Shown here in pieces: positions 1,824 through 46,227 of a stretch of 64,000 nt of DNA. Where the stretch lies: NCBI GenBank assembly GCA_017447865.1, contig JAFSMO010000072.1:1-64000 (forward strand). The letters are read 5' to 3'. This stretch comes from Thermoguttaceae bacterium. Its GTDB lineage: Bacteria; Planctomycetota; Planctomycetia; Pirellulales; Thermoguttaceae. Position 1 is the stretch's first letter; every line of letters begins with the position of its first letter. A program made the translations under genes and the position numbers. Below the pieces are notes generated by a model. The model saw only the letters and a list, made by a program, of their open reading frames with translations, ran no database searches and was not told where the DNA came from.

Positions 1824-3998
1824 ATGATCATGAACCCACTTGCAATTATTGCCGCACACATCTTCGCGCTGGTGCTTGGCCCCTGGAATATTCAGTTCAA
1901 CGAGGAAACCTCCGTCCTCACGCTTAAAAACACCGAGCAGAACGTTTCGATCGAAGGGACGCTCACCTTTGAGTCTGGCGATCAGGAATGGCAAATCATC
2001 AAAGCGCGCGACGCCGTCCCGCAGCGGCTCGGCCTGCTCAACAAGAACAACGACGTGATGGGTTACATCACGTTCCAGCAGAACGGAAGCCGCCTGGAGA
2101 TGCTGGTCGCCCACCGTACGCGCCAGTTCTACGAAGGCGTTCTGAAATTCGACGGGAAAGTCCGTTTCCGTGAGACCAGCTTCGCGTGCAAGACGCAAGC
2201 CTCGACCAGCGAGCGCGTTCTGTTCCTCGCCGCCGGTGACGGGGACTCGCTCCTGAACGATACGCTGTTCGCGCCGGAGGAAGACCTCGCCCTGCAGCTT
2301 CGCAGCGCGAACCTGACGGTCTCCTCGGAAGGAAGCGGGATCTACGATGTGCAAATGAGCGGCCGGATCCAGGAATCCGCCGAGGCCGCGTTCGTTTTCA
2401 ACATCGAGCCGCACTACCTGCAGACGCGCTACATTCCGTACTATTCACCGATCAACCGGACCCGTGCGCCGAAAGCGCCGACCGGCTGGATGTCGTGGAA
2501 CCTCTACTTCGACAAAGCGACGGCCGAGGACAATCTGGCGGAAGCCCGCATCGGGAAGAAGTACTTGCAGCCGTTCGGGATGGAGATCTGGCACATCGAG
2601 TCGTGGCAGGGAAATTCCGATCAGCTCCCGGTTTCCAATTTCTATAATCTGAACCTGGAAGTGAACGAGAAACAGTTCCCCGAGGGGATGAAGAAGCTGG
2701 CCGAGGACATTCGCGCGCTCGGTTTCCGTCCCGGGATCTGGATGGCGCCGTTTGGGACCGGAAACGACGAGTTCTACGCGGAGCACAAAGACTGGTTCCT
2801 GCACGACAAGAACGGCGTCCCGATGCGTTCGTGGAACGGCAAATACACGATCGACCCGTCCAATGACGAGGTGATCGCTCATCTGAAGAAGATCCACCAC
2901 ATTGCCGCGTACGATTGGGGGTACGACTACTTCAAGATCGACGGAATGTCCGGCTCCGGCGCCCATTACTGCGCGCACTTCTTTGAACGGCCGGAAACCA
3001 AAGCCGCGATGAAAAACCCGAACTGCCCCGACCCGTTTGAACGATGCGTCCGCGCATTCCGTGAAGGGATCGGTGAGGACCGCATTTTTAACGCCTGCCA
3101 GGGCCACTTCACCGGGCCGGAACCGAAGTACGCCGACTGCGGTCGAATCGGCTCTGACATCGTGCACCCGAATCAGCCGGTCGGCTGGAAGAACCTGATG
3201 GACCAGGGCGGACGGACGCACAACCAGATCTTCGCGCACAATATTGTGTTCTGGGCCGACCCGGACACGCTGCTGGTGAACGACGCTCTGACGATGGATG
3301 AGGCGCGCCTCTCGACCGTCGTCGTGAGTCTCCCGGGCCAGATGATGTTCTCCGGCGACAAACTGGCGGAGCTTTCGATGGACCGCATGCGTCTGCTCCA
3401 GCAGGCCCTCCCGCCGGTTCCGGACATTCACCCGGTGAACCTCTACCCGATCTTCAAGCACCTGCCGGTTTGGGACCTGAAAGTCCGCCGTCCGTGGGAA
3501 AATTACGACGTGATCGCGCTCTTCAACTGGACGGAAGAGGACGCCGAGATCGGCTTCACGGCTGAGGAAGTCGGCCTTTGCCCCGAGACGGAGTTCGTCG
3601 CGTACGAATTCTGGACGAACCAGTTCGTCGGGAAGATCCAGGGGGAATATTCCTGCAAGGTCCCGGCTCATGCCGTGCGTTTGTTCGCGGTGCGCAAGCT
3701 TCAGGCCAATCCGCAGTTCCTCACCAGCGACCGCCACGTCACGCAGGGCGCGGTGGACGTGAAGGCGATGAACTGGGCCGGCTCGAAGCTCCGCGGCACG
3801 GTGGAACTGATCGCGAATTTCCCGACCACGTTCCGCTTCACGGTCCCGGAAGGCAAAACGTTCAAAGCCGCCACGGCAAGCTGCCCGAAAGTGAAGGTGG
3901 AAACTGCACTTGAAGCCGGCGGAAAAGTCGTCGCGGTGAAACTCGGCTCGGAAGAGACGAAGAACGTGAACCTGACGCTGGAATACGCGGAGAACTGA
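1824..3998 (+). CDS. GH36/GH27-like alpha-galactosidase family glycoside hydrolase
   Basis: 724-residue clan GH-D type hydrolase, probably removing alpha-galactosyl (or alpha-N-acetylgalactosaminyl) groups by a retaining mechanism. The barrel begins at APTGWMSWN (about residue 214). The likely nucleophile is D373 in DYFKIDGM. The likely acid/base is D445 in the GRIGSDI segment, matching the R-x-SD pattern of the clan. A beta-sandwich domain precedes the barrel and another follows it. The start at 1824 is supported by GGAAGGA six bases upstream. The first 20 residues are hydrophobic and might be a weak signal peptide, but there is no clear cleavage site. Exact family and linkage cannot be fixed by eye. 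Confidence 0.85.
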   Translation: MIMNPLAIIAAHIFALVLGPWNIQFNEETSVLTLKNTEQNVSIEGTLTFESGDQEWQIIKARDAVPQRLGLLNKNNDVMGYITFQQNGSRLEMLVAHRTRQFYEGVLKFDGKVRFRETSFACKTQASTSERVLFLAAGDGDSLLNDTLFAPEEDLALQLRSANLTVSSEGSGIYDVQMSGRIQESAEAAFVFNIEPHYLQTRYIPYYSPINRTRAPKAPTGWMSWNLYFDKATAEDNLAEARIGKKYLQPFGMEIWHIESWQGNSDQLPVSNFYNLNLEVNEKQFPEGMKKLAEDIRALGFRPGIWMAPFGTGNDEFYAEHKDWFLHDKNGVPMRSWNGKYTIDPSNDEVIAHLKKIHHIAAYDWGYDYFKIDGMSGSGAHYCAHFFERPETKAAMKNPNCPDPFERCVRAFREGIGEDRIFNACQGHFTGPEPKYADCGRIGSDIVHPNQPVGWKNLMDQGGRTHNQIFAHNIVFWADPDTLLVNDALTMDEARLSTVVVSLPGQMMFSGDKLAELSMDRMRLLQQALPPVPDIHPVNLYPIFKHLPVWDLKVRRPWENYDVIALFNWTEEDAEIGFTAEEVGLCPETEFVAYEFWTNQFVGKIQGEYSCKVPAHAVRLFAVRKLQANPQFLTSDRHVTQGAVDVKAMNWAGSKLRGTVELIANFPTTFRFTVPEGKTFKAATASCPKVKVETALEAGGKVVAVKLGSEETKNVNLTLEYAEN

Positions 3999-4123: not shown

Positions 4124-5383
4124 ATGAGCACCTCTTCGCTCGACCCCGAAACCCCCACCCCCAAGAAACAGATGATGAGCGACAAAGCGTACGGGACGCT
4201 CCTGTGCATTTTGTCCGACACGCTGTTCAGCATCGTGTACGTTTTCGTCCAGTTCATCAACAAGAATACGTTCAACCAGGACGCGATCTTCAACCCGTCG
4301 TGGCGCGGCGACTGGATCCTCTGCTTCAAAGAGTGGATCGCGGCCATGTTCGCGCTCCCGATTTTCATTTACCTCTGGCGCACAGGCAAAACCTCCATCC
4401 CGGGCTGGAAAGTCATCGTCGGCCTGATCATTGCCGCGTTTTTCTGCGAGTACATCGGGATCGGTCACCACGTGCTGGCGAACGACTACATCGGGATGGC
4501 GCTCGGCCTGCCGGTCATCCGGACCATCACGATCCTTGGCTGCGCGATTTTCGGCGCCTTGCTGCTTCGTGAACGGGTTACCGGCCTGAAAATGGCCATG
4601 ATCGCCGTTTTGATCTGTGCCGTTGCGATGTTCGGCTACAGCAATTCGCTCGCCAAGAAAGCCAAGGACGCCGCGAATGCCAACGCCGTGGCCGCAGTCG
4701 CCGTGGAAGACGCTCAGGCGCAGGCGGTCGAGGTCCAGGAATCCGAAGTCCCGGTCGAGCCGGAAGTGGTCGCCGAAGCCGCGGAACCGGCCGAGCCGGA
4801 AGTGAAAGCGGAAGTCAAAGCAGAAGCCGAGACCGAAAAGAAAATCATGTACGCCGGCTACGCCGTCCAGTTCGACGCGCGTACGTTCGGGTTCATCTGC
4901 GCCTTCATCACGGGCATGGGGTACGCGATCTACACGCTGATTCTGCGGGCCGTCATGAAGAAGCCGGAACTCAAAGAGGGCGAAGAAGCGCCGAAGCCGG
5001 TTTCCGCGTATTTCGTCGTTTCGATGGTCTTCGGGTTTGGCGGTCTGTTCGGCTTCATCGCGATGCTGGGCAAGATGCGCGCGGCCGAAACGCCGCTTCA
5101 CCTCAGTGATTTGGCGACTGCCGTGCCGAAGGCGTGCTGGCTGAGCATTCTGGCGGCGGGCGTTCTGACGTTCATCGCGTTCTACCTGAAGAATCTTTCC
5201 TACCGCTACGCTTCCGCCTCGAAAGCCGCCGCGATGTCCGTGCTGCAGGTCCTCCTGAATATTTGCGCCGGAATGTTGATCTTCAGCGAGGCCGCGAGCT
5301 GGAACGGGACGATCTACGCCGTCTTCACGGTCGGAACGGTCCTGACGATTCTGGGGATCATCCTCGCCAGCCGGACGAGCTGA
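4124..5383 (+). CDS. EamA/DMT superfamily transporter with acidic cytosolic insert
   Basis: 419-residue polytopic membrane protein built of two EamA-like halves, as in drug/metabolite transporters that carry sugars, amino acids or metabolites. Hydrophobic helices run from about residue 25 to 165 and again from 255 to 417. Between the halves is an Ala/Glu/Val-rich stretch at about residues 180-242 with repeated PEV, AEP and KAE motifs. Most family members are near 300 residues, so this linker explains the extra length. The second half ends with GTVLTILGIILASR, typical of an EamA repeat. Substrate is unknown; the two preceding genes suggest a carbohydrate breakdown product. The start has AGGAG eight bases upstream. 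Confidence 0.85.
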   Translation: MSTSSLDPETPTPKKQMMSDKAYGTLLCILSDTLFSIVYVFVQFINKNTFNQDAIFNPSWRGDWILCFKEWIAAMFALPIFIYLWRTGKTSIPGWKVIVGLIIAAFFCEYIGIGHHVLANDYIGMALGLPVIRTITILGCAIFGALLLRERVTGLKMAMIAVLICAVAMFGYSNSLAKKAKDAANANAVAAVAVEDAQAQAVEVQESEVPVEPEVVAEAAEPAEPEVKAEVKAEAETEKKIMYAGYAVQFDARTFGFICAFITGMGYAIYTLILRAVMKKPELKEGEEAPKPVSAYFVVSMVFGFGGLFGFIAMLGKMRAAETPLHLSDLATAVPKACWLSILAAGVLTFIAFYLKNLSYRYASASKAAAMSVLQVLLNICAGMLIFSEAASWNGTIYAVFTVGTVLTILGIILASRTS

Positions 5384-8533: not shown

Positions 8534-9925
8534 ATGTTAAACTACAAAGTAAAAATCGGACTCGTACCGGAACGCCGGTTTCTTCCCGGTCCGCGCCGGA
8601 CGGAGCTTTTCAGCCAGGACGTCGCGTTTCAGAACAAACAGAAAGCCGTCCGTTTTCTGAAGGAAAAATTCGCTTCGGACGACGTGGAATTCGTCGATCT
8701 GGAATGGCTCAATGACGAAGGGATTCTGGAACAGACCGCAGACGCTTACAAAATCGCGGACCACTTCAAAAAACAGGACGTTGACGCCATTTTCATCATC
8801 AACTGCAACTTCGGGAACGAAGAAGCCGCCGGCAAAATCGGCCAGCTGATGAAACTTCCGACCCTTCTCTGGGGACCGCGCGACGAATTCAAAACCAAGC
8901 GCTACACCGACACGCAGTGCGGCCTTTTCTCGATCAGCAAACAGCTCAAACGCTACAACGTGCCGTTCACGTACATCGAAAACTGCGAGATCGAAGACCC
9001 GAAATTCGAGCAGGGCTTCAACGATTTTCTCTCGATAGTCACGATGGTCAAAAACTTCTACCGCCTGCGCATCATGCAGGTCGGAACGCGCCTGAAGCCG
9101 TTCAAGTGCGTCATGGCCAACGAGCTGGAACTGACTGAGCGCTTCGGGATCGACGTCATTCCGGTGAACATGATCGCGATGAAGTCGAAGTTTGAGGAAG
9201 TGACGGTTTCGAAGAAAGAAACCATCGAAATGCACGTCGAATTCATCAAAAAGCACTACGACGTGAGCGACATCGAGCCGGAAACGCTCTTCAAAATGGC
9301 CGCGTTCATCGAAACGTTCCGCGACCTGATGATCGAGAATCACTGCGACGTGATCGCGACCGAGTGCTGGACCGTGATGAATCAGGCTTTCGGCGCGATG
9401 CCGTGCCTGGCGATGAGCATCCTGGCTGACCTAGGCGTGATCGTGATCTGCGAGACGGACATTCACGGGGCGATCACCTCGGCCCTGCTTTCGTGCGCCG
9501 CCCGTGGGAAGAAGGCGCCATTCTTCGGCGAGTTCACTGTGCGCCACCCCTCGAACGACAATTCGGAGCTTCTGTGGCACTGCGGCGTCTTTCCCACGTC
9601 GATGAAGAAGACGGACGAGAAAAAGCCGCTGGCGGTCTTCAAGCCGAGTTTCTGCGGCAAAGACGGCCACTACACGCTGGCGCGTTTTCAGGGCGAGCGC
9701 GGAAATTACTACCTGCTCGGCGGCGAGTTCGACACGACGGACGGTCCCGAAACCTTCGGAACGTGGGTTTGGGCCGAGTTCAAGGACCTCCCGGCGCTTG
9801 AGCGCAAGCTGATCGAAGGCCCGTACATTCACCACGTGAGCGAAGTGGAAGGCCGTTTCACGAACGTCCTGAAAGAATTCACCAAGTACGTCCCCGGGTT
9901 GATTTTTGACCCATTGGAAAAGTAG
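8534..9925 (+). CDS. L-fucose/L-arabinose isomerase family sugar isomerase
   Basis: 463 residues. The family interconverts aldoses and ketoses with a divalent metal (Mn). Seen here are probable metal-site segments: E in ATECWTVMN (about residue 280), a second acidic site in CETDIHGA (about 316), and a histidine in LLWHCGVFP (about 352). The C-terminal TLARFQGERGNYYLLGGE segment is typical of the fucose/arabinose isomerase fold. The start at 8534 is downstream of the predicted promoter and has AGAAGG nine bases ahead. It heads a run with a flavoprotein, an Fe-S protein, a class II aldolase and a PfkB kinase, so it most likely makes the ketose that is then phosphorylated and cleaved. The natural sugar cannot be deduced. 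Confidence 0.85.
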   Translation: MLNYKVKIGLVPERRFLPGPRRTELFSQDVAFQNKQKAVRFLKEKFASDDVEFVDLEWLNDEGILEQTADAYKIADHFKKQDVDAIFIINCNFGNEEAAGKIGQLMKLPTLLWGPRDEFKTKRYTDTQCGLFSISKQLKRYNVPFTYIENCEIEDPKFEQGFNDFLSIVTMVKNFYRLRIMQVGTRLKPFKCVMANELELTERFGIDVIPVNMIAMKSKFEEVTVSKKETIEMHVEFIKKHYDVSDIEPETLFKMAAFIETFRDLMIENHCDVIATECWTVMNQAFGAMPCLAMSILADLGVIVICETDIHGAITSALLSCAARGKKAPFFGEFTVRHPSNDNSELLWHCGVFPTSMKKTDEKKPLAVFKPSFCGKDGHYTLARFQGERGNYYLLGGEFDTTDGPETFGTWVWAEFKDLPALERKLIEGPYIHHVSEVEGRFTNVLKEFTKYVPGLIFDPLEK

Positions 9926-10083
9926 TCAGTAGTCAGTGGTCAGAAAAAAGTAGTCAGTAGTCAGTAGTCAGTAGTCAGCGTTCTGCCTTCGGCAGAATAT
10001 AGGATTCAAAATTCATCATGCAAAAATTCCATATTTCGGCGCAGCCGAAACACTGACTACTGACCACTGACTACTGACTACTT
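9923..10083. repeat. AGTAGTC heptamer repeat in inverted clusters
   Basis: Tandem AGTAGTC/AGTGGTC heptamers run from 9923 (overlapping the isomerase TAG stop) to about 9979. The reverse complement runs at 10051-10083. Between them is a CTGCC-ttc-GGCAG hairpin. The arms could form a long stem between isomerase and oxidase genes. Confidence 0.85.
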
Positions 10084-10130
10084 AACCCCCCGGACGTAAA
10101 TGCCACCAAAAACCAAACCAAGGAGAAACC

Positions 10131-11549
10131 ATGAATAAATTCCTTTTTTCCATGATCCAGACCGAGCTTGAAGACGCCGTGGGCGTTGAAAATTGCTCCA
10201 TCCGTGAAATCGATAAACTGACGCACAGCGTGGACTACTTCTGGCTTTCCCGTCTTTTTGTGGACCGCGGCGAGAAAATGCCCGAGGCCGATTACGTCGT
10301 TTCGCCGAAAGACGCGAAGGAAGTCTCGAAAGTCCTCCAGATCGCCAATTACTACAAACTCCCCGTCACGACGTGGGGCGGAGGCGGCGGGACCCAGGGC
10401 GGCGCCATCCCGGTCTGCGGCGGCATCGTCCTCGATACGAAGCGCATGAACCAGATTTACGACGTGAACACCGATTCGATGTACATCGAGTGCGGCACGG
10501 GCGCGATCTACAAGCACATTGAAAACGTCGCGAACGAACGGGGCTACGCCACGATGCACTACCCCAGCTCGCTGACGTGCTCGACGGTCGGCGGCTTCCT
10601 CGCCCACCGCGGGATTGGCGTCGTTTCGACCAAGTACGGGAAGATCGACGACATGGTGCTCCAGATGGAAGTCGTGCTTCCGAACGGCGACATCATCGAG
10701 ACCTCCCCGGCGCCGAAACACGCGGCAGGACCGGACCTGAACCAGATCTTCATCGGCTCCGAAGGGACGCTGGGAGTCATCACGAAGGCCCAGATGCGCA
10801 TTTACAATCAGCCGGAAGAGCGCCGTTTCCGCGGGTTCCTCTTCCAGGATCTGCACAGCGCGTTCCTCGCCGGGAAGGAACTCCTTCAGAAGATCAAACC
10901 GTCCGTGATGCGTCTGTACGACGAGACGGAAACCGGCTCGATCATCAAGAAAATCGTCGGCGTCGAGAAAAAAGGCGCGTTCATGAACGTCGCGATCGAG
11001 GGCCTGCACGAGATCGTCGCGATCGAGGAGAAAATCATGCTCGCGACCTTCGCGAAATACGGCGCGGAAGACCTCGGCAGCGAGTATGGCGAAAAGTGGT
11101 GGAAGGAGAAGATCACGTTCTTCTACCCCGGTCACGCGCTTGACCTCCCGTGGATGTTCGGCACGATGGACTCGATCGCCCCGTTCGACAAGATCGAGAA
11201 GATCTACTGGGCGATGAAAAACGCCGTCGAGTCGAATTTCCCGATGGCCCGGTTCATCGCGCACTTCTCGCACTGGTACGAGTGGGGAGCGATGATCTAC
11301 GACCGTTTCATCGTGGAAGAACCCCCGCAGGACCCGGTGGAAGCCCTGCGCCTGCACCAGCAGATCTGGAACTGCGGCGTGCGTGCCGCGCTCGCCAATG
11401 GCGGCGTGGTCAACGACCACCACGGCGTCGGAATCAAGCTCGGCCGCCTCATGAAAGAGCAGTACGGCCCGGCCATGCAGGTCTTCGAGGGAATCAAGAA
11501 GCAGCTTGACCCGAACAACATTTTGAACCCGTTCAAGCTGGGACTTTAA
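10131..11549 (+). CDS. FAD-binding oxidoreductase (GlcD / alkyl-DHAP synthase type)
   Basis: 472 residues. The N-terminal PCMH-type FAD domain (about residues 45-225) has the glycine-rich loop TTWGGGGGTQGGAIP and the GSEGTLGVITKA segment that binds FAD. The C-terminal cap domain ends NDHHGVGIKLGRLMKEQYG, where the paired histidines recall alkyldihydroxyacetonephosphate synthase and D-lactate/glycolate dehydrogenases. A cytosolic 2-hydroxy-acid (lactate, glycolate or similar) dehydrogenase is the likeliest role. The next gene encodes a ferredoxin-like Fe-S protein that could accept its electrons. AAGGAGA precedes the start. Substrate is not determinable here. Confidence 0.85.
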   Translation: MNKFLFSMIQTELEDAVGVENCSIREIDKLTHSVDYFWLSRLFVDRGEKMPEADYVVSPKDAKEVSKVLQIANYYKLPVTTWGGGGGTQGGAIPVCGGIVLDTKRMNQIYDVNTDSMYIECGTGAIYKHIENVANERGYATMHYPSSLTCSTVGGFLAHRGIGVVSTKYGKIDDMVLQMEVVLPNGDIIETSPAPKHAAGPDLNQIFIGSEGTLGVITKAQMRIYNQPEERRFRGFLFQDLHSAFLAGKELLQKIKPSVMRLYDETETGSIIKKIVGVEKKGAFMNVAIEGLHEIVAIEEKIMLATFAKYGAEDLGSEYGEKWWKEKITFFYPGHALDLPWMFGTMDSIAPFDKIEKIYWAMKNAVESNFPMARFIAHFSHWYEWGAMIYDRFIVEEPPQDPVEALRLHQQIWNCGVRAALANGGVVNDHHGVGIKLGRLMKEQYGPAMQVFEGIKKQLDPNNILNPFKLGL

Positions 11550-11553
11550 AGAA

Positions 11554-11583
11554 CGAATAATGAAGAACGAATAACGAATAATG
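11554..11583. repeat. AT-rich repeat family E, copy with exact match at 38601
   Basis: A 30-bp sequence of GAATAA/TGAA type words lies between the flavoprotein and Fe-S genes. It is identical base for base to 38601-38630. Confidence 0.9.
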
Positions 11584-11591
11584 AATTCATT

Positions 11592-11599
11592 AAGGAGAG
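11592..11599 (+). promoter_or_regulatory. Ribosome-binding site that fixes the GTG start of the Fe-S gene
   Basis: AAGGAGAG lies five bases before a GTG at 11605. The in-frame ATG at 11581 is upstream of this site and falls in repeat family E, so GTG 11605 is the better start. Confidence 0.8.
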
Positions 11600-11604
11600 T
11601 TAAA

Positions 11605-12696
11605 GTGCAATTTACTGAAAAAGCCAAAAAAACGATCGACGCCTGCCGTTTCTGCTGGATGTGCCGCCACATTTGCCCGATCGGAAACGCGAACGGGATG
11701 GAGCGCTGCACCTCCCGCGCCCGCGCTCTGGGGCTTTCGATGGTCGTCCGCGACATCACGACGATCGACGCCGCGATCGAAAACGTTTACGAGTGCTCGC
11801 TCTGCGGCGCCTGTACGAAAGAATGCAAGACCGGCTGGGACCCCGTCCTTTTCACCACCGAGGCCAAACTTGAGGCCGCGATGGCCGGCGCGATGCCCGA
11901 GTACATCATGACGCTGCTCGAAAACGTCGAAAAGTTCGGAAACGTTTTCGGAAAGTCCGAGTGCTGCACGAAACTCGGCGAGAAGATCGCCACGCTCCCG
12001 AAAACGGAGGACGTCCTGCTTTTCGTCGGCAAAAACGCGCTCTACCAGACGTGCTGCCAGGTCAAAGCTGCCATCGACCTTTTCGAGAAAGCCGGCGTGA
12101 ATTTCACCGTTTTGGCCGATGAGCCGTCGAGCGGCTGGGACCTCTTCTTCCTCGCTGGCGGTGCGGAGGAGACGCGCCAGACCATGAAGGCGTGCGCCGC
12201 GGCCCTGAACGGCTTCAAAAAAGTCGTGGCCCTCGACCCGAACGACGCCCGGATGTTCCTGCGCCAGTACAAAGAATGGGGGATCGGCCTGACCTCGCCG
12301 GTCGTGACGTTTACCTCGTTCGTGGCGGACCTGATCGCCGAGGGGAAGATCGCTCCGAAGAAGAGCGCCAGCGTGTACACGTTCCAGGATCCGGCCTCGC
12401 TGGCCCGCGATCTGGAAGAGACGGAGCCGGCCCGCAAGATCCTCGCCGCCTGCGGGGAAACGCTGGAAATGCTGGAGCACGGCAAGGACACGAACATCGC
12501 CGGGAACCTGATCATGGCGCAGTACATGCCGGAAACCATCGCCAAAGTGGCGGCGCGGCGCTGGCAGGAGGCGATCCGCGTCGGAGCGAAGACCGTCGTG
12601 ACGGCCAACCCGGACGATCACGCCGCGCTGAAAGCGACCCAGCCCGAGGGGATGGAGCTCGCCTCGATCCAGGAAGTGGTGCTTGCCAATCTGTAA
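11605..12696 (+). CDS. GlcF/GlpC/LutA-like Fe-S electron transfer protein with degenerate CCG domains
   Basis: 363 residues from GTG. Two [4Fe-4S] ferredoxin motifs are clear: C14, C17, C20, C24 (CRFCWMCRHICP) and C64, C67, C70, C74 (CSLCGACTKEC). The rest resembles the two-lobed cysteine-rich part of glycolate oxidase GlcF, GlpC or LutA, but its key cysteines are gone: the position usually reading HDPC is QDPA (YTFQDPASLAR), and the CCG positions read SGWDLF and TNIAG. So it can probably relay electrons through its cubane clusters but not build the non-cubane cluster of HdrB-like proteins. It follows the flavoprotein by 55 bp, suggesting a dehydrogenase-electron transfer pair. Confidence 0.85.
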   Translation: MQFTEKAKKTIDACRFCWMCRHICPIGNANGMERCTSRARALGLSMVVRDITTIDAAIENVYECSLCGACTKECKTGWDPVLFTTEAKLEAAMAGAMPEYIMTLLENVEKFGNVFGKSECCTKLGEKIATLPKTEDVLLFVGKNALYQTCCQVKAAIDLFEKAGVNFTVLADEPSSGWDLFFLAGGAEETRQTMKACAAALNGFKKVVALDPNDARMFLRQYKEWGIGLTSPVVTFTSFVADLIAEGKIAPKKSASVYTFQDPASLARDLEETEPARKILAACGETLEMLEHGKDTNIAGNLIMAQYMPETIAKVAARRWQEAIRVGAKTVVTANPDDHAALKATQPEGMELASIQEVVLANL

Positions 12697-12710
12697 ACTT
12701 TCACGTTTTT

Positions 12711-12734
12711 AAGGAAACCTCAAAGGAAACCTCA
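12711..12734 (+). promoter_or_regulatory. Duplicated ribosome-binding site before the aldolase
   Basis: AAGGAAACCTCA occurs twice in perfect tandem (12711-12722 and 12723-12734). The second copy is well placed for the ATG at 12737. Confidence 0.7.
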
Positions 12735-12736
12735 AA

Positions 12737-13570
12737 ATGCTCGTTAAATTCAAAGACATTCTGGCGATTGCCGAGTCGAAATCCTTTGCGATCCCGGCCT
12801 TCAACGCCTACAACATGGAAACGGCCATGGGGATCATCCACGCGGCGGAAGAGGCGAAGTCGCCGGTCATCATTCAGGCGTACTCCCGTTTGTTCGAGTA
12901 CGGCACGGCGTTCTACCTTGCTCCCACGATCCTGAAAGGGGCGGAAGAGGCCAAAGTGCCGGTCTGCTTCCACCTGGACCACGGAACGGGCCTCGTGCCG
13001 GTCATGCGCGCCCTGCGTTACGGCTGCACGGGGATCATGTTCGACCGTTCCTCCCTCTCGTTCGAGGAAAACGCCGCCCAGACCCGGCAGGTCGTGGACC
13101 TCTGCGCCGCCTGCGGAGTCACGGTCGAAGGCGAGCTGGGCCACATCGGAACGACGAAAGAGGAAGTTTCCGAATTCGTGTACACCGAAGTCGATGACGC
13201 GGTAAAATTCGTGGAACAGACGGGAGTGGTGGCTCTGGCGATCGCCGTCGGGACCGCGCACGGCCGCTACAAAAAAGCCCCGCAGGTGAATATTTCCCGC
13301 ATCGCCGAGATCCACAAAGCGATCCCGGCCGCGGTGGTCCTGCATGGCGGAAGCGGCATTCCGGACGACCAGGTCCGCGACGCGATCGCCGCCGGCATCC
13401 GGAAGGTCAATTTCGGCACGGACGTCTGCTACTCGTTCCTCGATAAAGTGTTCGAGACCTCGCGCGAAATCTTCGCCGTCGACATTTTCATGCGCGACGC
13501 GATCAACGCCGTACGGGACTTCGCGGTCAGCAAGATCCAGCTCCTCGGCGCTGAGGGCAAAGCAGAATAA
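12737..13570 (+). CDS. Class II (zinc) ketose-bisphosphate aldolase family
   Basis: 277 residues, matching the GatY/KbaY/FbaA/IolJ family, which cleaves a ketose 1-phosphate or 1,6-bisphosphate to dihydroxyacetone phosphate and an aldehyde. Zinc ligands are visible: H82 in FHLDHG, H175 in GTAHG and H203 in LHGGSG. D81 is the expected catalytic aspartate. The phosphate-binding end KVNFGTD is present. Placed between a dehydrogenase pair and a PfkB kinase, it should split the phosphorylated ketose made by the upstream isomerase and the kinase. Tagatose-, fructose- and 2-deoxy-5-keto-gluconate-specific members cannot be told apart by eye. Confidence 0.9.
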   Translation: MLVKFKDILAIAESKSFAIPAFNAYNMETAMGIIHAAEEAKSPVIIQAYSRLFEYGTAFYLAPTILKGAEEAKVPVCFHLDHGTGLVPVMRALRYGCTGIMFDRSSLSFEENAAQTRQVVDLCAACGVTVEGELGHIGTTKEEVSEFVYTEVDDAVKFVEQTGVVALAIAVGTAHGRYKKAPQVNISRIAEIHKAIPAAVVLHGGSGIPDDQVRDAIAAGIRKVNFGTDVCYSFLDKVFETSREIFAVDIFMRDAINAVRDFAVSKIQLLGAEGKAE

Positions 13571-13587
13571 AAACGAAAGAGGATTTT

Positions 13588-14487
13588 ATGGCTCAAATCA
13601 CCGGCATCGGGGCCAACGTTTTTGATACGCTGGTCAAGGTCCCATCGTTTCCCGTCGAGGACACGAAAAGCTGCGTCGAGACCGTCGTCGCCAGCGGCGG
13701 CGGCCCCACGGGCACCGGTCTGGTCGCTGCGGCCAAACTCGGCGCGCGCTGCTCCGTCCTGGCCGTTCTTTCGACGGACGCCGGCGGGCACTTCCTCATG
13801 GACGATTACAAAAAATTCGGCGTCGATACTTCGCTGGTCGAGATCCGCGACGGTGAGTCGTTTTCCGCCATCGTGCTTTTGAACTCGGCGACGGGCTCGC
13901 GTACGTGCCTCTTGAACCGGGGCACGCTCCCGAAACTCGTTCTGAACGAGGCGCAGAAGGCGGAGATCCGCGGCGCTCAGGTCCTCATGGTCGATGGAAA
14001 CGAGATGGACGCCGCCGTGGCTGCGGCCGAAATCGCCCGTGCGTCCGGAACGAAAGTCCTCTACGACGCCGGGGGCCTGTACGCGGGCATTGAGCGCCTT
14101 TTGCCGCTGGCGGACATTCTGATCCCCTCCGCCGAATACGCTCTGGGATTCACCCAAAAAGCGACGCTTGAGGACGCCGCGCGTGACCTCAACGCCCGGT
14201 TTCATCCGGAGATCGTCGTGATCACGAATGGGGCGGAAGGCGGAATCCTTTTCGACGGCGCGCAGATTCGTTCCTACCCGGCCTTCAAGGTCGAGGTGGC
14301 GGACTCGAACGGCGCGGGCGACGTTTTTCACGGAGCGTTCGCCTTCGCGGTGACGCGAGGGTGGGACTACTTCAAATGCTGCGTCTTTTCCAGTGCCGTT
14401 TCGGCGCTGAAATGCACCAAGGTCGGCGCGCGTTCCGGCGTGCCTTTTTACACGGAAGTTGAAGACTTTTTAAGGAAAAATTACTGA
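13588..14487 (+). CDS. PfkB family carbohydrate kinase
   Basis: 299-residue ribokinase-fold sugar kinase. The C-terminal signature is DSNGAGDVFHGAF with catalytic base D245; the usual threonine of DTxGAGD is asparagine here. The N-terminal substrate loop GGGPTGTGLVAAAKLGA is typical. It starts 17 bp after the aldolase stop and ends one base before the MscS gene, so it is certainly within an operon. It probably phosphorylates the ketose produced by the isomerase. Alternatives by homology are fructokinase, 1-phosphofructokinase, tagatose-6-phosphate kinase and IolC-like kinase. Confidence 0.9.
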   Translation: MAQITGIGANVFDTLVKVPSFPVEDTKSCVETVVASGGGPTGTGLVAAAKLGARCSVLAVLSTDAGGHFLMDDYKKFGVDTSLVEIRDGESFSAIVLLNSATGSRTCLLNRGTLPKLVLNEAQKAEIRGAQVLMVDGNEMDAAVAAAEIARASGTKVLYDAGGLYAGIERLLPLADILIPSAEYALGFTQKATLEDAARDLNARFHPEIVVITNGAEGGILFDGAQIRSYPAFKVEVADSNGAGDVFHGAFAFAVTRGWDYFKCCVFSSAVSALKCTKVGARSGVPFYTEVEDFLRKNY

Positions 14488-14488
14488 C

Positions 14489-16489
14489 ATGAATGCACGA
14501 TTTCTTGCATTTCTCGTTTTGTTTTTGAGCTTTGTGCCGGTTTGGGCGGATGAACCCACGGGTCAGGGACTTGATCTGGGGATCGAAATTGTGCCGGATG
14601 CGGCTGCAGACTCTATGAAGGGATCTGTCCCTCAAACGATGCCGCCAGAAAAAGAAATTCCCCGCTTGGAAGCCGCGCCGAAGGAAGTAAAGGCCACGCC
14701 TGAGAAACCGGTCTCCAAAGCGGAGCAAATGTTCAATTCCGACGAGGAAATTGTGGACATTACGGTGGAGGCCGATGAGGTTCCAGAAGAGGCCAAGCCG
14801 GAAAATGATGTGATGGTCCAGTCCTCCATGGAGGCCGCAGAAAAGGTGAGAGAATCGAATCCTGCCAAATCAGGAGATGCGACTAATGAAAATTCTGAAA
14901 ACGTCGCAGAGGAGCTTCCGGACGAGCTTCCGGAGGACAAGCCCCAGAACTCGGCTGGGGGGGCGGGATCATCTGGCAATTCGCCGACCGCTTCGGACAC
15001 AGTTTCAGAAAGTTTGACACCGCAAGAGATCGCCCTTCAGAAAACCCTGAAAAATCCACGTGTAACGGTGAATTTCTTCATCGAAAAGATCATCGAAAAA
15101 AAGTACGACGAGGCGATTTTAGCGATGGATTTTTCCGCCCAGCCTGATCTGGACAAACTACAGCGCCACAATCTCGCCTATCAGCTTTTCGCAATCATCT
15201 CGCGGCTAGATCATTTTCAGTTAAACGGTATTCCGGAAAATTATGATCGGAACGAGTGTTACCTGATGCCGGACCGGAACTACCACGCCATCGTTTTGAC
15301 TCGCCAGCCGGATGGTACGTGGCGGTTTGGCACGGCGACGGTGGCGGATATTCCGTCATTTTATGACAAAATCAAAGCCAAAACTCCGAAATTCATTCGT
15401 AAAACATGGATGGGATTCCTGCCAGATTTTATGTTCCATCACTATTTCGGCATGTCGGTGGTTCAGTGGAGCATGTTCTTTATTGCTGTATGTCTGGGAA
15501 TTATCGTGGCTTGGGCGCTCCCTAAAATCTGTGCCCGTGTAACGCTTCTTTTCATTCATCTGGTGAAAGGACGAAAGGATTTCATTCCTTACCTTAGCAG
15601 GGTGTACAGTCCGCTGGCCCTCTATATGATGTTCATCATTTGGTATTTTGGTCTGGTTTATGTCAGCGCGTCTCCTGTGATTTTGAGGAACGCGTTCCTT
15701 GTGCTGAAGCCTTTGGGACTCTTTTTCCTGATGTTGACCTTGTTACGCGCGGTGAATGTTTTCGGATTGTGGTTCCGCAAGCGGCTTGAGCGAAGCCGAA
15801 ATAAAACCGGGACGGTCCTGGTTGACATTACCACGGGTGGAATGAAAATCCTTGTGGTTTGCATTGGAACCATCATGATCGCCGAGGTTTTCGGCTTTTC
15901 TGCAATCGGAATCATCTCCGGCATGGGAATCGGTGGTATCGCCGTCGCTTTGGCAGCCCAGCAGACAATCGCGAACTTTTTCGGAAGTTTGACGATCCTC
16001 CTCGACCGGCCGTTTACGGTGGGTGACCGCGTGGTGATCGGCTCGATTGAAGGCCTGGTGGAATCGATTGGGGTCCGCTCGACACGAATCCGCACGCTGT
16101 ACGATTCAAGCGTCATCATTCCGAACGCGACTCTTTCGACCGACACGATCGACAATTTGGGGCGTCGTGCTGCGCATCGTTTCCGCACGATGCTGACCGT
16201 CACATACGATACGACGCCGGAAAAACTGCAGGAATTTTGCGAGAATATCAAGAAGATCCTCAAAGAAGACCCGGATGTTCTTGAGGATCGCTGCACCGTT
16301 TCCGTTTACGATTTCTCGGAATCTTCGATCGATATTTTGTTTAACACTTTCTTCCGCGCAGACACTTCGGCACAGGAGTTTGCCATCCGTGAGCGTCTTT
16401 TGCTGAGTATTTTGAAACTTGCGAGTGAGATGGGCGTGGATTTTGCGTTCCCGACTCAGACAAACTACGTGATTTCCGAAAAGAAATGA
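14489..16489 (+). CDS. MscS family mechanosensitive channel with long acidic N-terminal domain
   Basis: 666 residues. A signal peptide (MNARFLAFLVLFLSFVPVWA) is followed by about 165 residues rich in Glu, Pro, Ser and Asp that look disordered, then a small folded domain (about 180-290). Transmembrane helices begin near residue 324. The MscS pore and beta domain occupy about 470-560 (GIGGIAVALAAQQTIANFFGS, then RPFTVGDRVVIGSIEG). It opens under membrane tension to release solutes during osmotic downshock. The ATG is two bases after the PfkB stop, so it is translated from the sugar operon. Base composition is visibly less GC-rich than in the kinase gene. Confidence 0.9.
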   Translation: MNARFLAFLVLFLSFVPVWADEPTGQGLDLGIEIVPDAAADSMKGSVPQTMPPEKEIPRLEAAPKEVKATPEKPVSKAEQMFNSDEEIVDITVEADEVPEEAKPENDVMVQSSMEAAEKVRESNPAKSGDATNENSENVAEELPDELPEDKPQNSAGGAGSSGNSPTASDTVSESLTPQEIALQKTLKNPRVTVNFFIEKIIEKKYDEAILAMDFSAQPDLDKLQRHNLAYQLFAIISRLDHFQLNGIPENYDRNECYLMPDRNYHAIVLTRQPDGTWRFGTATVADIPSFYDKIKAKTPKFIRKTWMGFLPDFMFHHYFGMSVVQWSMFFIAVCLGIIVAWALPKICARVTLLFIHLVKGRKDFIPYLSRVYSPLALYMMFIIWYFGLVYVSASPVILRNAFLVLKPLGLFFLMLTLLRAVNVFGLWFRKRLERSRNKTGTVLVDITTGGMKILVVCIGTIMIAEVFGFSAIGIISGMGIGGIAVALAAQQTIANFFGSLTILLDRPFTVGDRVVIGSIEGLVESIGVRSTRIRTLYDSSVIIPNATLSTDTIDNLGRRAAHRFRTMLTVTYDTTPEKLQEFCENIKKILKEDPDVLEDRCTVSVYDFSESSIDILFNTFFRADTSAQEFAIRERLLLSILKLASEMGVDFAFPTQTNYVISEKK

Positions 16490-16509
16490 CCTTAACCCCC
16501 CTTTGAATC

Positions 16510-18900
16510 ATGAGACATTTTCTTGCCTTTCCACTTGTGTTTTTTTTCGTTTTTTCGGCCTTCGTTTCGGCGGAACCCCCGGAGGTGGTGACGCTCATTT
16601 CCGGTGGTCGATCGGACTGCCGGATCGTTCTGCCGGCCGAGCCGACCCCGGTCCAACAGACGGCGGCGCAGGAGCTTCAGAAATACTTGGCCCAAATCTC
16701 GGGCGTGGAGCTTCCCATTGTTTCTGAAACGGACGCGCAGGAGGCCGGAAACCGAATCGTTCTGGGGCCTTCCGCTCTTTCGCAGAAACTGCTGGGGGAG
16801 ACGCTCGACGAGTCCAAAATCGGCTACGACGGGATCGCGCTTCAAACGGTCGGCTCGGATCTCGTTCTGACGGGCCACCCGCAGCGCGGAACGCTCTACG
16901 CCGTGTACGAGTTCCTCGAAAGAGTACTCGGCTGCCGCTTCTGGATGCCGGACTGCGAAACGGTCCCGAAGGCCGAAACGGTTCAGGTCCCGGTGGGGTT
17001 TTCGTACCAGTACACGCCGAAACTCGTGTACCGCGACGCCTTCTACCGGTCGGATCGGGACGCGGCTTTTGCGGCCAAGATCCGGAATAACGGGACGCAG
17101 AACATTCCGCCGGAACTGGGAAACCACCACGAGTTTTGTCATTTCGTGCACAGTTTTTACCCGATCCTCCCGCCGTCGAAGTACTTTGACGCGCATCCCG
17201 AGTGGTACAGCGAGGTGGACGGCAAACGGACGTGCGACCACGCCCAGCTTTGCCTCACGAACGAGGAAATGTTCCACGAGTTCGTGAAAAACGCGAAGGA
17301 GCACCTGCGAGGGCAGCCGAACGCGACGTTCCTCTCGGTCAGTCAGAACGACTGGCACAAGAATTTCTGCCACTGCGAGAAGTGCATGAAACTCGCCGAG
17401 GAGGAAGGCTCCCAGTCCGGCCCGCTGATCCATTTCGTGAATCGGGTCGCGGAGGAGATCGAGAAGGAATTTCCAAACGTTTACGTCGAGACGCTGGCCT
17501 ACACGTACACGCGCAAGCCGCCGAAGCACGTGCGCCCGCGGCATAACGTCGTGGTGCGTCTTTGCACGATCGAGTGCTCCTTCTGCCAGCCGCTTTCGGG
17601 CGAGCAGAACGTGACGCTCCGCGAGGATCTGGACGGCTGGTCGAAGATCGCGCCGAACCTTTTCATCTGGGACTACGTCACGAATTTCTCGTACTATTTG
17701 CTCCCGTACCCGAATTACTACGTTCTGGCGCCGAATATCCGCTTTTTTGTGGACCACCACGCGATCGGGATCTTCGAGCAGGGCGATACGCACACGGAGG
17801 CGGGCGACTTTATGCCGCTGCGGGCGTGGGTCATTTCCAAACTTTTGTGGGATCCGACGCTTGATTTCGACGCGCTGAAAGACGAATTCGTCGCCGGGTA
17901 CTACGCGCCGGAACTGGTGCCGGTCTTCGACGAGTACTTCAAGTTGATGCGTTCCGAAGTCGAGAAGTCCGGGATCTACCTCGGGATTTACCGCCAAACG
18001 GTCCGCGACTGGCTTTCCTTCGCCGGCCTGAACCGGGCGACGCAGCTGATCAAGGAGGCGCAGAAAATCGCCGCGAAACTCGAAGCGCAGGACCCCGAGC
18101 GGTACGCGGGCCTCGTGAAGAAAATCGAGCGCGAGACGTTCCCGACCGGCCTGGTATGGGTCGAGGACTGGAAGTTTTACAAAAACGAGTCGTTCTTTGA
18201 CTCTCAGCCGTGGGAAGGCCCGGAGGCTTACCCGCAGGCGGTCGACAAGATGATCCGGCATTTCGATTCGTACGGGCTGACTCAGTTCCGCGAGTCGAAC
18301 GGCGCGATCCAGAACCTGAAAGAAAAGCTCCTCGGGAAGAAAGAGCTTTGGGAAAAATGCCAGAGCCGGAATTACGAGACGAAGCCCGAAACGTTCCCGG
18401 AGGAGGTGCGAAACCTTCCGCCGAAGTCGTGGGTCGAGATCGAGCAGGAGAGTTTTAACCTGCACATTCCCGGGAAGTACGTTTTCATCGAGGAGGACCC
18501 GCAGGCGTCGAACGGCCTGACGTTCCGCATGGGCGGCGACCACACGCAGTGGGCGACGTCCTGGCCGATCCAGAAGTGGGTCCACCGGATGACGCCGGCG
18601 CTGGGGGAGGAAAACGCTGAAAAAACGGCCGGGAAGTTCCGCGTTTTCGCCGCCGTTCGCTGTGACGCCACTGGAACCGGCCGCGCGATGGACATCGGGA
18701 TCTACGACGAGACTCAGCACAAGAATCTGGTTTACCGTGCGCCCAGCGCCGAGACGATTTCGGGCCCGGAGTACCACTGGATCGATCTGGGCGAGGTGGA
18801 ATTCATCCAAGGGAACTGCCAGTACTTCTGGGCCGCCCCGGTGAATCGTCCGAACGAGGTGCAGAATGTTTACGTGGACCGGATTTTGATCGTGCATTAA
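16510..18900 (+). CDS. Secreted DUF4838 family protein (alpha-glucuronidase-like)
   Basis: 796 residues with signal peptide (MRHFLAFPLVFFFVFSAFVSA). Residues about 25-130 match the non-catalytic N-terminal domain seen in GH67/GH115-type alpha-glucuronidases and GH20-type enzymes (TAAQELQKYLAQISG, IVLGPSALSQ). The DUF4838 barrel follows, including a CHCEKC motif near residue 292 after FLSVSQNDWHKN. A C-terminal sandwich (about 640-795) may bind carbohydrate. The enzymatic activity of DUF4838 is not something I can state; a role on uronic-acid-containing glycans is inferred. It begins 20 bp after the MscS gene. Confidence 0.8.
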   Translation: MRHFLAFPLVFFFVFSAFVSAEPPEVVTLISGGRSDCRIVLPAEPTPVQQTAAQELQKYLAQISGVELPIVSETDAQEAGNRIVLGPSALSQKLLGETLDESKIGYDGIALQTVGSDLVLTGHPQRGTLYAVYEFLERVLGCRFWMPDCETVPKAETVQVPVGFSYQYTPKLVYRDAFYRSDRDAAFAAKIRNNGTQNIPPELGNHHEFCHFVHSFYPILPPSKYFDAHPEWYSEVDGKRTCDHAQLCLTNEEMFHEFVKNAKEHLRGQPNATFLSVSQNDWHKNFCHCEKCMKLAEEEGSQSGPLIHFVNRVAEEIEKEFPNVYVETLAYTYTRKPPKHVRPRHNVVVRLCTIECSFCQPLSGEQNVTLREDLDGWSKIAPNLFIWDYVTNFSYYLLPYPNYYVLAPNIRFFVDHHAIGIFEQGDTHTEAGDFMPLRAWVISKLLWDPTLDFDALKDEFVAGYYAPELVPVFDEYFKLMRSEVEKSGIYLGIYRQTVRDWLSFAGLNRATQLIKEAQKIAAKLEAQDPERYAGLVKKIERETFPTGLVWVEDWKFYKNESFFDSQPWEGPEAYPQAVDKMIRHFDSYGLTQFRESNGAIQNLKEKLLGKKELWEKCQSRNYETKPETFPEEVRNLPPKSWVEIEQESFNLHIPGKYVFIEEDPQASNGLTFRMGGDHTQWATSWPIQKWVHRMTPALGEENAEKTAGKFRVFAAVRCDATGTGRAMDIGIYDETQHKNLVYRAPSAETISGPEYHWIDLGEVEFIQGNCQYFWAAPVNRPNEVQNVYVDRILIVH

Positions 18901-18907
18901 TACTTGG

Positions 18908-18934
18908 GTACGGCGGGCCGCCGTCCTTCCGAAT
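18908..18934. repeat. Family H GGACGGCGG palindromic repeat, copy 1
   Basis: A GGCGG/CCGCC palindrome flanked by CCTTCCGAA. It is the reverse complement, with about three mismatches over 26 bases, of the hairpin at 46228-46253. Confidence 0.6.
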
Positions 18935-18966
18935 TTAAACTTTAACCATTAATCAAGGAGAAACTC

Positions 18967-19764
18967 ATGAGCGACTATTCCTACAAGAAATCCTGGAACA
19001 AAGAAAACGGCAAATCGGCCGTCATTACGTTCGAGAACAGTTCACTCGAAATGCTCGAAGTGGACATGCTGAAGCTGCAGCCGGGCGACAAAAAGTCGTA
19101 CCAGGAAGGCGGCAAAGAGTACGGCCTCCTCATCCTCGGCGGTCAGTGCTCCGTCGTGGGTTCAGGCTTCAGTTTCGAGAACATCGGCAAGCGCGCGAAC
19201 GTGTTTGACGGTCCGGCCACTTGCGTGTACATTCCGGGCGAAACCCCGTTCACCATCACCGGGGTCACGGAAGTTTCCATCGCCGTCTGCAAATCGGTCG
19301 CAGGTGACGGTTTCGAGCCGAAACTCATCAATCCCGAAGACGTGGTGATCAAGGACCTCGGCAAACCCGGCTGGGAACGTCAGGCGCATTTCATTCTGGA
19401 CGAGCGCTGCCCCGCCAACCTGATCTACATCGGCGAGGCGTACGTCAAGGGCGGCCAGTGGGCAAGCTATCCCCCGCACAAACACGACGACGACAACATG
19501 CCGATCGAAGGCGTTCAGGAGGAGATCTACTACTACGAGTTCGATAAACCGAGCGGATTCGGCATCCAGCGCGTGTACACGAAGGAAGGCGACATCGATG
19601 AGACGTACACCGTCAAGTCGGGTGATTTCGTCGAGATTCCGCGCGGCTACCACCCGTTCTGCTGCGCGCCGGGGTATAACAATTACTACTTGTGGATCAT
19701 GGCCGGTGAAAATCGCGGTTTCCACATGACGACCGAGGAAGGACACAAATGGCTGAACAAATGA
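18967..19764 (+). CDS. IolB/KduI family 5-deoxyglucuronate isomerase-like cupin
   Basis: 265 residues forming a double cupin. In inositol catabolism IolB opens 5-deoxy-D-glucuronate to 5-dehydro-2-deoxygluconate. The metal-binding segment is conserved: PPHKHDDDNMPIEGVQEEIYYY (about residues 173-194) supplies His, His and Glu, and a later histidine lies in IPRGYHPF. AAGGAG lies nine bases upstream. No iolD, iolE or iolA is present, so a substrate other than inositol breakdown products is possible. The stop overlaps the next start as ATGA. Confidence 0.85.
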   Translation: MSDYSYKKSWNKENGKSAVITFENSSLEMLEVDMLKLQPGDKKSYQEGGKEYGLLILGGQCSVVGSGFSFENIGKRANVFDGPATCVYIPGETPFTITGVTEVSIAVCKSVAGDGFEPKLINPEDVVIKDLGKPGWERQAHFILDERCPANLIYIGEAYVKGGQWASYPPHKHDDDNMPIEGVQEEIYYYEFDKPSGFGIQRVYTKEGDIDETYTVKSGDFVEIPRGYHPFCCAPGYNNYYLWIMAGENRGFHMTTEEGHKWLNK

Positions 19765-20372
19765 AAATTTACCGCGTGACGGACCCGGAATTCAAGCCCT
19801 ACGGCCGGGTCATCCCGATGGATGCGTCGGAACTGATCGACGCGGCGAAGAAGCAGGAAATGCCGGTGGAAGGCTCGAAGTACGAACCCTCCCTGGCGTC
19901 TCTGGAAGCGACCGCGGCCATGCCCTGGTTCACGGACGAAGTGTACGGCGAAATGCCGGTCCAGATCGGCCTCTGCTGGGGGCACAACCGCCAGATGAAC
20001 GCGCTGGAGTGGCACCGCGATTCCGAAATCAACGTGGCCGTCACGGATTTCGTTCTGATCCTCGCCAAACTGGACGATCTGGACGCGGACGGTCGGCTGG
20101 ACTCTGCGAAGTGCAAAATGTTCCAGGTCAAGGCGGGCGAAACGGTCGAAGTGTACGCGACGAGCCTGCACTTCTGCCCCTGCACGACCGACCCGGCCGG
20201 GTTCAGCTGCGTCGTGGTGCTTCCGAAAGGCACGAACGTCCCGCTCGACAAAAAACCGGCAGACGCGCTTCTTTTCCGCAAGAACAAATGGCTCATCTGC
20301 CACGAAAGCGCCGAAGGCCTGAAATCCCGCGGCGTCGTGGCGGGCATTTACGGCGAAAACTGGTCGCTGTGA
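19761..20372 (+). CDS. DUF4867-like small cupin-type protein
   Basis: 203 residues from the ATG at 19761, preferred over the ATG at 19749 because it gives the 4-base ATGA overlap typical of translational coupling. The opening MKIYRVTDPEFKPYGRVI and internal GHNRQMNALEWHRDSEINV and EVYATSLHFCPC are what I recall of DUF4867 proteins; this family assignment is from memory and unverified. Several His and Glu residues in a beta-rich context suggest a metal-binding cupin. Coupling to the IolB-like gene implies that the two act together on a sugar acid or keto-sugar. Confidence 0.6.
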   Translation: MKIYRVTDPEFKPYGRVIPMDASELIDAAKKQEMPVEGSKYEPSLASLEATAAMPWFTDEVYGEMPVQIGLCWGHNRQMNALEWHRDSEINVAVTDFVLILAKLDDLDADGRLDSAKCKMFQVKAGETVEVYATSLHFCPCTTDPAGFSCVVVLPKGTNVPLDKKPADALLFRKNKWLICHESAEGLKSRGVVAGIYGENWSL

Positions 20373-40450: not shown

Positions 40451-43624
<3,174 letters not shown>

Positions 43625-45219: not shown

Positions 45220-46227
45220 ATGCAGTACGTAGAACTGGGAAAAACCGGGATCCAGACCTCGGTCATTGCGCTGGGAACGTGGGGGATCGGCGGCTGGATG
45301 TGGGGCGGAGCCGATGAGGCCGAGTCCATCGACGCCATTCACGCCGCGCTTGACCACGGCGTCAACTTCATCGATACGGCCCCGCTTTACGGCTTCGGCC
45401 GTTCGGAGGAGGTCGTCGGGAAGGCGATCGCCGGCCGCCGAGATTCGGTCGTGCTGACGACCAAGTGCGGGATCTGGTGGTCGAAAGACCCGTTCCCGGA
45501 GGGCCAGGGCGAACTTCACGTCTACTCCAACGGCGGAGCGCTCGGGGACGCGGAGCATTACGACCGGATCCTTTACCGCTACCTGCGCCCCGACTCGATT
45601 CGGGCGGAGCTGGAACGGAGCCTGAAACTCCTCGGGACGGACTACCTGGACCTCTACCAGGTGCACTGCCAGGACGCGACCTCGCGCATCGCCGAGACGA
45701 TGGAAACCCTTCTGGACCTGAAAAAAGAGGGCAAGATCCGCGCGATCGGCGTTTCCAACGTGACGCCGGCGCAGCTCGCCGAGTACCAGGCCGTCGGGTA
45801 CGTGGACGTTCTGCAGGAACGTTTCAGCCTGCTGGACCGCGACGTCCAGACGTCCGGCATGGCCGCGACCGTGGAGAAGGAGTCCATGACGCTTCTGGCC
45901 TACGCGCCGATGGTCCACGGCCTCTTGACGGGCAAACTCACGCCCGAGACGAAGTTCCCGGAGGGCGACTTCCGCGCCTCCACGCCGCTTTTTGCGCCCG
46001 AGTGCATCCGCTCGATCAACGAAAAACTCGCGAAACTCCAGCCTTTGTGCGAGAAGTACCTGGCGACCACGACGCAGATCGTCCTGGCTTGGACGTTCAG
46101 CACCGGCCCGAAAACGAGCGTCTTGTGCGGCGCCCGCTCGGCCCGCCACTCCATCGAAAACTCGAAGGCCGGCGCCATTGAACTGACCGCGGAAGACCGC
46201 GCGATGATCGATGAGATCTTTCAGTGA
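45220..46227 (+). CDS. Aldo/keto reductase
   Basis: 335-residue NADPH-dependent reductase of the AKR superfamily. The catalytic tetrad is recognisable: D and Y in FIDTAPLYG (about residues 50-58), K in VLTTKCG (about 82) and H in LYQVHCQD (about 148). GVSNVTPAQLAEYQ and the late cofactor-binding CGARSARHSIENSKA segment are typical. Sixteen bases after the xylanase stop with AAAGGAG upstream, so probably cotranscribed; it may reduce a sugar aldehyde, but this is inference. Confidence 0.92.
   Translation: MQYVELGKTGIQTSVIALGTWGIGGWMWGGADEAESIDAIHAALDHGVNFIDTAPLYGFGRSEEVVGKAIAGRRDSVVLTTKCGIWWSKDPFPEGQGELHVYSNGGALGDAEHYDRILYRYLRPDSIRAELERSLKLLGTDYLDLYQVHCQDATSRIAETMETLLDLKKEGKIRAIGVSNVTPAQLAEYQAVGYVDVLQERFSLLDRDVQTSGMAATVEKESMTLLAYAPMVHGLLTGKLTPETKFPEGDFRASTPLFAPECIRSINEKLAKLQPLCEKYLATTTQIVLAWTFSTGPKTSVLCGARSARHSIENSKAGAIELTAEDRAMIDEIFQ

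Follow-up and report, generated by a model that had tools for sequence, protein, structure and literature searches.

A conserved, apparently undescribed sugar pathway gene cluster in Thermoguttaceae and gut Clostridia

A run of nine plus-strand genes in the genome of a Thermoguttaceae bacterium (4.8 Mb, 110 contigs) raises the question of which genes form a pathway and what kind of sugar that pathway breaks down. The run lies in a stretch of 64,000 nucleotides, referred to here as the window; neither RNA families nor tRNAs were detected in these 64 kb. A sequence-only reading had proposed an undescribed sugar or sugar-acid catabolic route in which an isomerase, a kinase and an aldolase yield DHAP and an aldehyde. 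It had named structure prediction of the isomerase, active-site comparison of the aldolase and a search for conserved gene neighbourhoods as ways to check this.

Gene content and conserved core of the cluster

All nine open reading frames were recovered with the coordinates, order and strand that had been claimed. The gaps of 205, 55, 40, 17, 1, 20, 66 and -4 bp were reproduced with GTG 11605 as the start of the Fe-S protein and ATG 19761 as the start of the DUF4867 protein, which are reasonable choices. Eight of the identities were borne out by Pfam and NCBIfam (FAD_binding_4 with FAD-oxidase_C, Fer4_8, F_bP_aldolase, PfkB, MscS, DUF4838 with a GH67 N-terminal domain, KduI/IolB and DUF4867), and that of the isomerase by its predicted fold instead. 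The nine genes, followed by three related ones from elsewhere in the window, are:

8534-9925, plus strand: predicted aldose-ketose isomerase with the fold of arabinose and fucose isomerases, distantly related to SftI/SqvD
10131-11549, plus strand: FAD-linked dehydrogenase (PF01565/PF02913), nearest E. coli relative YgcU, not GlcD
11605-12696, plus strand: Fe-S protein, two-[4Fe-4S] electron carrier (Fer4_8); alternative start ATG 11581 possible
12737-13570, plus strand: class II DHAP aldolase, YdjI/KbaY-like (PF01116, 289 bits)
13588-14487, plus strand: ketose kinase of the PfkB family, YihV-like (PF00294)
14489-16489, plus strand: channel with MscS domains, an insertion outside the conserved pathway
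16510-18900, plus strand: secreted DUF4838/GH67N protein (PF16126, 341 bits), an insertion outside the conserved pathway
18967-19764, plus strand: IolB-like isomerase, a KduI/IolB-family cupin (TIGR04378, 243 bits; cut-off 205)
19761-20372, plus strand: DUF4867 protein, a SqvB/SftX-family cupin (PF16161, 241 bits); alternative start ATG 19749 possible
4124-5383, plus strand: EamA-family transporter (PF00892), displaced member of the planctomycete clusters
42155-43624, plus strand: XylB-like FGGY carbohydrate kinase (TIGR01312, 381 bits; cut-off 380), displaced core member
48804-50219, minus strand: electron transfer flavoprotein (ETF), fused beta-alpha, displaced core member

The neighbourhood search revealed a core that recurs across Thermoguttaceae, Clostridia and Cloacimonadota. 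At least 565 loci related through the isomerase were found in one scan, and 49 related loci extended 8.5 kb or more downstream from the isomerase gene. These 49 contained the aldolase in 42 cases, the FAD dehydrogenase, the Fe-S protein and the PfkB kinase in 41 each, the ETF in 38, the FGGY kinase in 37, the IolB-like isomerase in 35 and the DUF4867 protein in 23; FAD dehydrogenase, Fe-S protein, aldolase, PfkB and FGGY kinase occurred all together in 36. The core is made up of the isomerase and these eight proteins, and planctomycetes add the EamA transporter.

In other Thermoguttaceae the genes are contiguous, in the order isomerase, FAD dehydrogenase, Fe-S protein, aldolase, PfkB, IolB and DUF4867, then FGGY kinase, fused ETF and EamA. 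The displaced FGGY kinase and ETF of the window are 63% and 54% identical, respectively, to the in-cluster kinase and ETF of a relative. A genome of the same genus (G340) carries the FGGY gene directly after that for IolB, followed by the ETF gene and, downstream, an EamA gene whose product is 72% identical to that of the window, which indicates that the scatter of the three genes in the window is probably secondary. Two further genes stand near these displaced members: one for a melibiase-like protein (1824-3998; PF02065, 36 bits) directly 5' of the EamA gene, and one for an aldo-keto reductase (45220-46227; 38% to YdjG) close to the FGGY and ETF genes, of which G340 has a 72% copy about 10 kb from its cluster.

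The MscS channel and the DUF4838 protein had no match in any of 80 related loci, nor in any of the 49 loci with the longer downstream sequence. At the corresponding place, between the PfkB and IolB genes, G340 has a gene with a SIR2_2 domain (L053, 4322-5917), so that this gap seems to be a site prone to taking up insertions. The membership proposed by the sequence-only reading was accordingly correct for the isomerase, FAD dehydrogenase, Fe-S protein, aldolase, PfkB, IolB and DUF4867 and incorrect for the two inserted genes, and it had missed the FGGY kinase, ETF and EamA. The idea that the DUF4838 enzyme releases the sugar was rejected and has lost its basis, as no related locus examined carries this gene.

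Isomerase, kinase and aldolase

The isomerase has no Pfam match and scores 108 bits against the SftI model NF048012, for which the cut-off is 700. An AF2 model (mean pLDDT 88.8) was found to match L-arabinose isomerase over its full length (VIA Z 33, rmsd 3.2, 433 residues aligned; Foldseek TM 0.81) and also L-fucose isomerase (Z 27). By its predicted fold, the protein is therefore an aldose-ketose isomerase.

The PfkB kinase is closest to E. coli YihV (30%), and its nearest solved relative is the sulfofructose kinase 7ag6. Lys27, Asn109 and Arg138 of YihV are taken here to be the sulfonate-binding residues. An equivalent of Lys27 is present in 58 of 59 kinase copies and one of Arg138 in none of the 59, while the column of Asn109 depends on the alignment. 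The aldolase, whose best PDB match is YdjI (6ofu), has kept the zinc-site His residues but differs from the bisphosphate aldolases at two positions. In FbaA, KbaY and GatY an Arg binds the second phosphate of the substrate; all 59 aldolase copies have Asp249 at its place, which argues against a bisphosphate substrate. All 59 likewise have Arg51, where those three enzymes have Gly or a gap. Together, the residue changes in aldolase and kinase argue against sulfoquinovose, and on this comparison both enzymes seem to be built for another sugar.

The nearest described system is sulfo-EMP2, composed of SqvD, SqvB, SqiK and SqiA, whose isomerase family is also paired with transaldolase or transketolase genes (PMC9594981). 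The cluster shares with it a FucI-type isomerase, a DUF4867 protein, a ketose kinase and a class II (PF01116) aldolase that yields DHAP. In contrast to sulfo-EMP2, the kinase is of the PfkB type and not PF00365 like SqiK, the isomerase lies far below the SftI threshold, the sulfonate-binding Arg is missing, and genes for FAD/Fe-S/ETF, IolB-like and FGGY proteins are present, which are undescribed for sulfo-EMP2. DUF4867 proteins make up the SqvB/SftX family, which occurs in clusters for sulfo-EMP2, sulfo-TAL and sulfo-TK (PMC9594981, PMC11968277); the open-access papers retrieved that name DUF4867 mostly dealt with sulfoquinovose. The metal ligands reported for SqvB (PMC11968277), an E..H...E motif and a later His, are conserved in the DUF4867 protein of the run.

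The preferred reading, to which we assign a probability of about 0.5, is a DHAP-forming sugar pathway that follows the logic of sulfo-EMP2; its substrate would probably be neither sulfoquinovose nor any other sulfonated sugar. The DUF4867 protein would help the sugar into a reactive ring or open-chain form, by analogy with the proposal for SqvB, and the isomerase would convert the aldose to a ketose. The kinase would then phosphorylate the ketose, presumably at C1, and the aldolase would cleave the ketose-1-phosphate into DHAP and an alpha-hydroxyaldehyde. In this order of reactions the tail of the sugar would be neither phosphorylated nor sulfonated; EamA would be the transporter in planctomycetes. 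In favour of this reading are the conserved gene set, the shared distribution of isomerase and FAD dehydrogenase, the isomerase fold, the nearest kinase, the DUF4867 family, the exchange of cleavage modules described below and the active-site residues. The invariant Arg51 of the aldolase counts against it, as this residue could take over from the lost Arg and hold an anionic tail. There is good support for the claimed route, in which isomerase, kinase and aldolase lead to DHAP plus an aldehyde, and likewise for a likeness to sulfosugar breakdown.

That likeness could also mean plain sulfoglycolysis, that is, a hybrid of sulfo-EMP and sulfo-EMP2 for sulfoquinovose in which the FAD/Fe-S/ETF proteins and EamA handle sulfolactaldehyde or sulfolactate. 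An SftI-like isomerase, a YihV-like kinase with Lys27 kept, a class II aldolase like SqiA and a DUF4867 protein like SqvB (PMC9594981) would all fit such a scheme. It is nevertheless quite improbable: the isomerase score is far under the SftI cut-off, no SftI above cut-off was found in 24 host genomes of the clostridial and cloacimonadal clusters, Arg138 of YihV is kept nowhere, and the IolB-like isomerase and the FGGY kinase would be left without a job. The kinase resembles YihV of the E. coli yih sulfo-EMP pathway, but the isomerase and the aldolase show no sequence relationship to YihS and YihT, no YihQ or YihU was found nearby, and E. coli YihQ, YihS, YihT and YihU had no match in the related loci compared. 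E. coli YihQ, the one sulfoquinovosidase used as a query, gave no match in the window's own genome either; these YihQ searches had no positive control.

A second alternative is double phosphorylation, as in the tagatose-6-phosphate route: the FGGY kinase would form a ketose-6-phosphate (or 5-phosphate), PfkB would add the C1 phosphate, and the aldolase or a TalC-like protein would cleave the product. The FGGY gene is indeed found in nearly all full clusters (37/49), DUF4867 genes often lie near FGGY and fucose isomerase-like genes (PMC11968277), and the TalC-like protein of a divergent cluster version scores 277 bits against a fructose-6-phosphate aldolase cut-off of 246. This alternative is still considered unlikely, because the Arg with which tagatose-6-phosphate-type bisphosphate aldolases bind the second phosphate is replaced by Asp in 59/59 copies, and because YihV, the nearest relative of the kinase, acts on a substrate that gains its single phosphate in the reaction itself.

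Dehydrogenase, IolB-like isomerase and FGGY kinase

The FAD protein scores 184 bits to YgcU (29% identical) and 95 bits to GlcD, and AGPS is also nearer to it than GlcD; a function as a plain glycolate or D-lactate dehydrogenase was set aside as less likely for this reason. The Fe-S protein has two conserved Cys clusters. Together with the Fe-S protein and the ETF, the FAD dehydrogenase would be expected to hand electrons on to NAD or ferredoxin. The IolB-like isomerase shares its HKHD and EE motifs with 2qjv, and both it and the FGGY kinase travel with the FAD/Fe-S block.

These genes may constitute a second module of the preferred pathway. At a guess, the FAD/Fe-S/ETF dehydrogenase would oxidise an intermediate or by-product with electrons leaving via the ETF, the IolB-like protein might isomerise a second aldehyde to a ketone, and the FGGY kinase might phosphorylate the product for central metabolism. 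Neither the FGGY nor the IolB substrate could be tied to the first module, that of DUF4867 protein, isomerase, PfkB and aldolase. In some loci a GlcD-like FAD protein and a LarA-like gene (the latter assigned by eye) stand in place of IolB; this replacement, which hints at a hydroxy-acid product, is otherwise unexplained and counts against the preferred reading.

The sequence-only reading had also been reminded of the end of inositol breakdown, and a uronate or inositol-derived acid might indeed be degraded through a branch resembling IolB, IolC and IolJ. The lower inositol pathway likewise combines an IolB-family isomerase, a PfkB kinase and a class II aldolase; the IolB-like protein scores above the 5-deoxy-glucuronate isomerase cut-off, PfkB matches the IolC model (95 bits, below cut-off), and YdjI, the best aldolase match, acts on an octuluronate phosphate. 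This likeness did not hold up, and the reading has only a slim chance of being correct. The best IolD match in the window's own genome reached 217 bits, far from the cut-off of 715, in line with the earlier remark that IolD is missing, and the inositol route was rejected on this search. The extra isomerase, dehydrogenase and FGGY kinase also differ from that pathway. Moreover, IolB accompanies the FAD/Fe-S and FGGY genes where PfkB and aldolase were not found, whereas some loci in which both occur lack it.

The combination of FAD protein, ETF and FGGY kinase found in the second module also occurs in the ygc locus of E. coli K-12 (ygcQ, ygcR, ygcU, ygcE; L162, 8920-17375). Unlike the cluster, this locus has no annotated isomerase, aldolase, PfkB, IolB or DUF4867 gene. 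A search of the open-access literature with the ygc names returned nothing.

Spread, possible lateral transfer and exchangeable cleavage modules

Of the 119 family genomes, 11 encode a close copy of the isomerase, and exactly these 11 also encode one of the FAD dehydrogenase, an association that is not due to chance; two other members of the window's genus have neither. Isomerase orthologs in Thermoguttaceae are 63-87% identical and share the same start Met. In a scan of named genomes, dozens from gut Clostridia and one from Cloacimonadota had the same gene set, rearranged and usually without EamA. The hosts include the cultured Ructibacterium gallinarum DSM 107454. In many Lachnospiraceae loci, the genes for isomerase, aldolase and PfkB are neighbours, frequently joined by that for DUF4867, and the FAD/Fe-S/ETF block comes next.

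The FAD protein is 84-96% identical within Thermoguttaceae and, in the window's lineage, still mostly 80-85% identical to type A Clostridia of another phylum. In the FAD tree, planctomycete, type A clostridial and cloacimonadal copies form one group (support 100/100), and a second lineage with the Hungatella and Herbinix copies is separate, as are divergent copies of the window's own family. The tree and the identities across phyla fit lateral transfer. Neighbouring genes in some loci give conflicting hints and were not used as a clue to the substrate: galactosidase-like (L096, L140), NagA-like and NagB-like (L098, L114) and lactate permease (L118).

Other genomes of the family contain a divergent version (L185-L188) with IolB, FGGY, FAD and Fe-S genes and an isomerase closer to SftI (255 bits). 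Neither PfkB nor aldolase was found in it within the stretch covered, and in L186 the gene for the TalC-like protein takes their place. In L148 and L159, a relative of the isomerase adjoins a split transketolase. These exchanges of PfkB and aldolase for a TalC-like protein or a transketolase parallel the EMP2, TAL and TK forms of sulfoglycolysis. L148 and L159 also contain a glycyl radical enzyme (759 aa) with its activase, a GalM-like epimerase and a small RhaM-like protein (assigned by eye); the glycyl radical enzyme is below threshold for all curated families, and its best solved match is a diol dehydratase.

The pathway is real and conserved and apparently undescribed, as no paper combining the parts of the cluster was retrieved from the open-access literature. 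A wider proposal is made tentatively, at somewhat less than even odds: the cluster would encode a complete, undescribed catabolic route for a sugar to which no gene has so far been assigned. Cleavage would come in three interchangeable versions, in parallel to sulfoglycolysis, an oxidation step would be linked to ETF, and the route would have been exchanged among Clostridia, Cloacimonadota and Planctomycetota of the gut. If this holds, a module widespread in the gut degrades a sugar whose fate there is not yet known. It would also provide a context for a role of DUF4867 outside sulfoglycolysis and for the purpose of gene groups that combine FAD, ETF and FGGY proteins, among them the uncharacterised ygc locus.

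One related locus (L138, 2151-13089) has a run of isomerase, SDR, aldolase and PfkB genes after genes for an aldehyde dehydrogenase, a glycerate kinase-like and an enolase-like protein (the last assigned by eye), a gene set that suggests glyceraldehyde as the aldehyde formed there.
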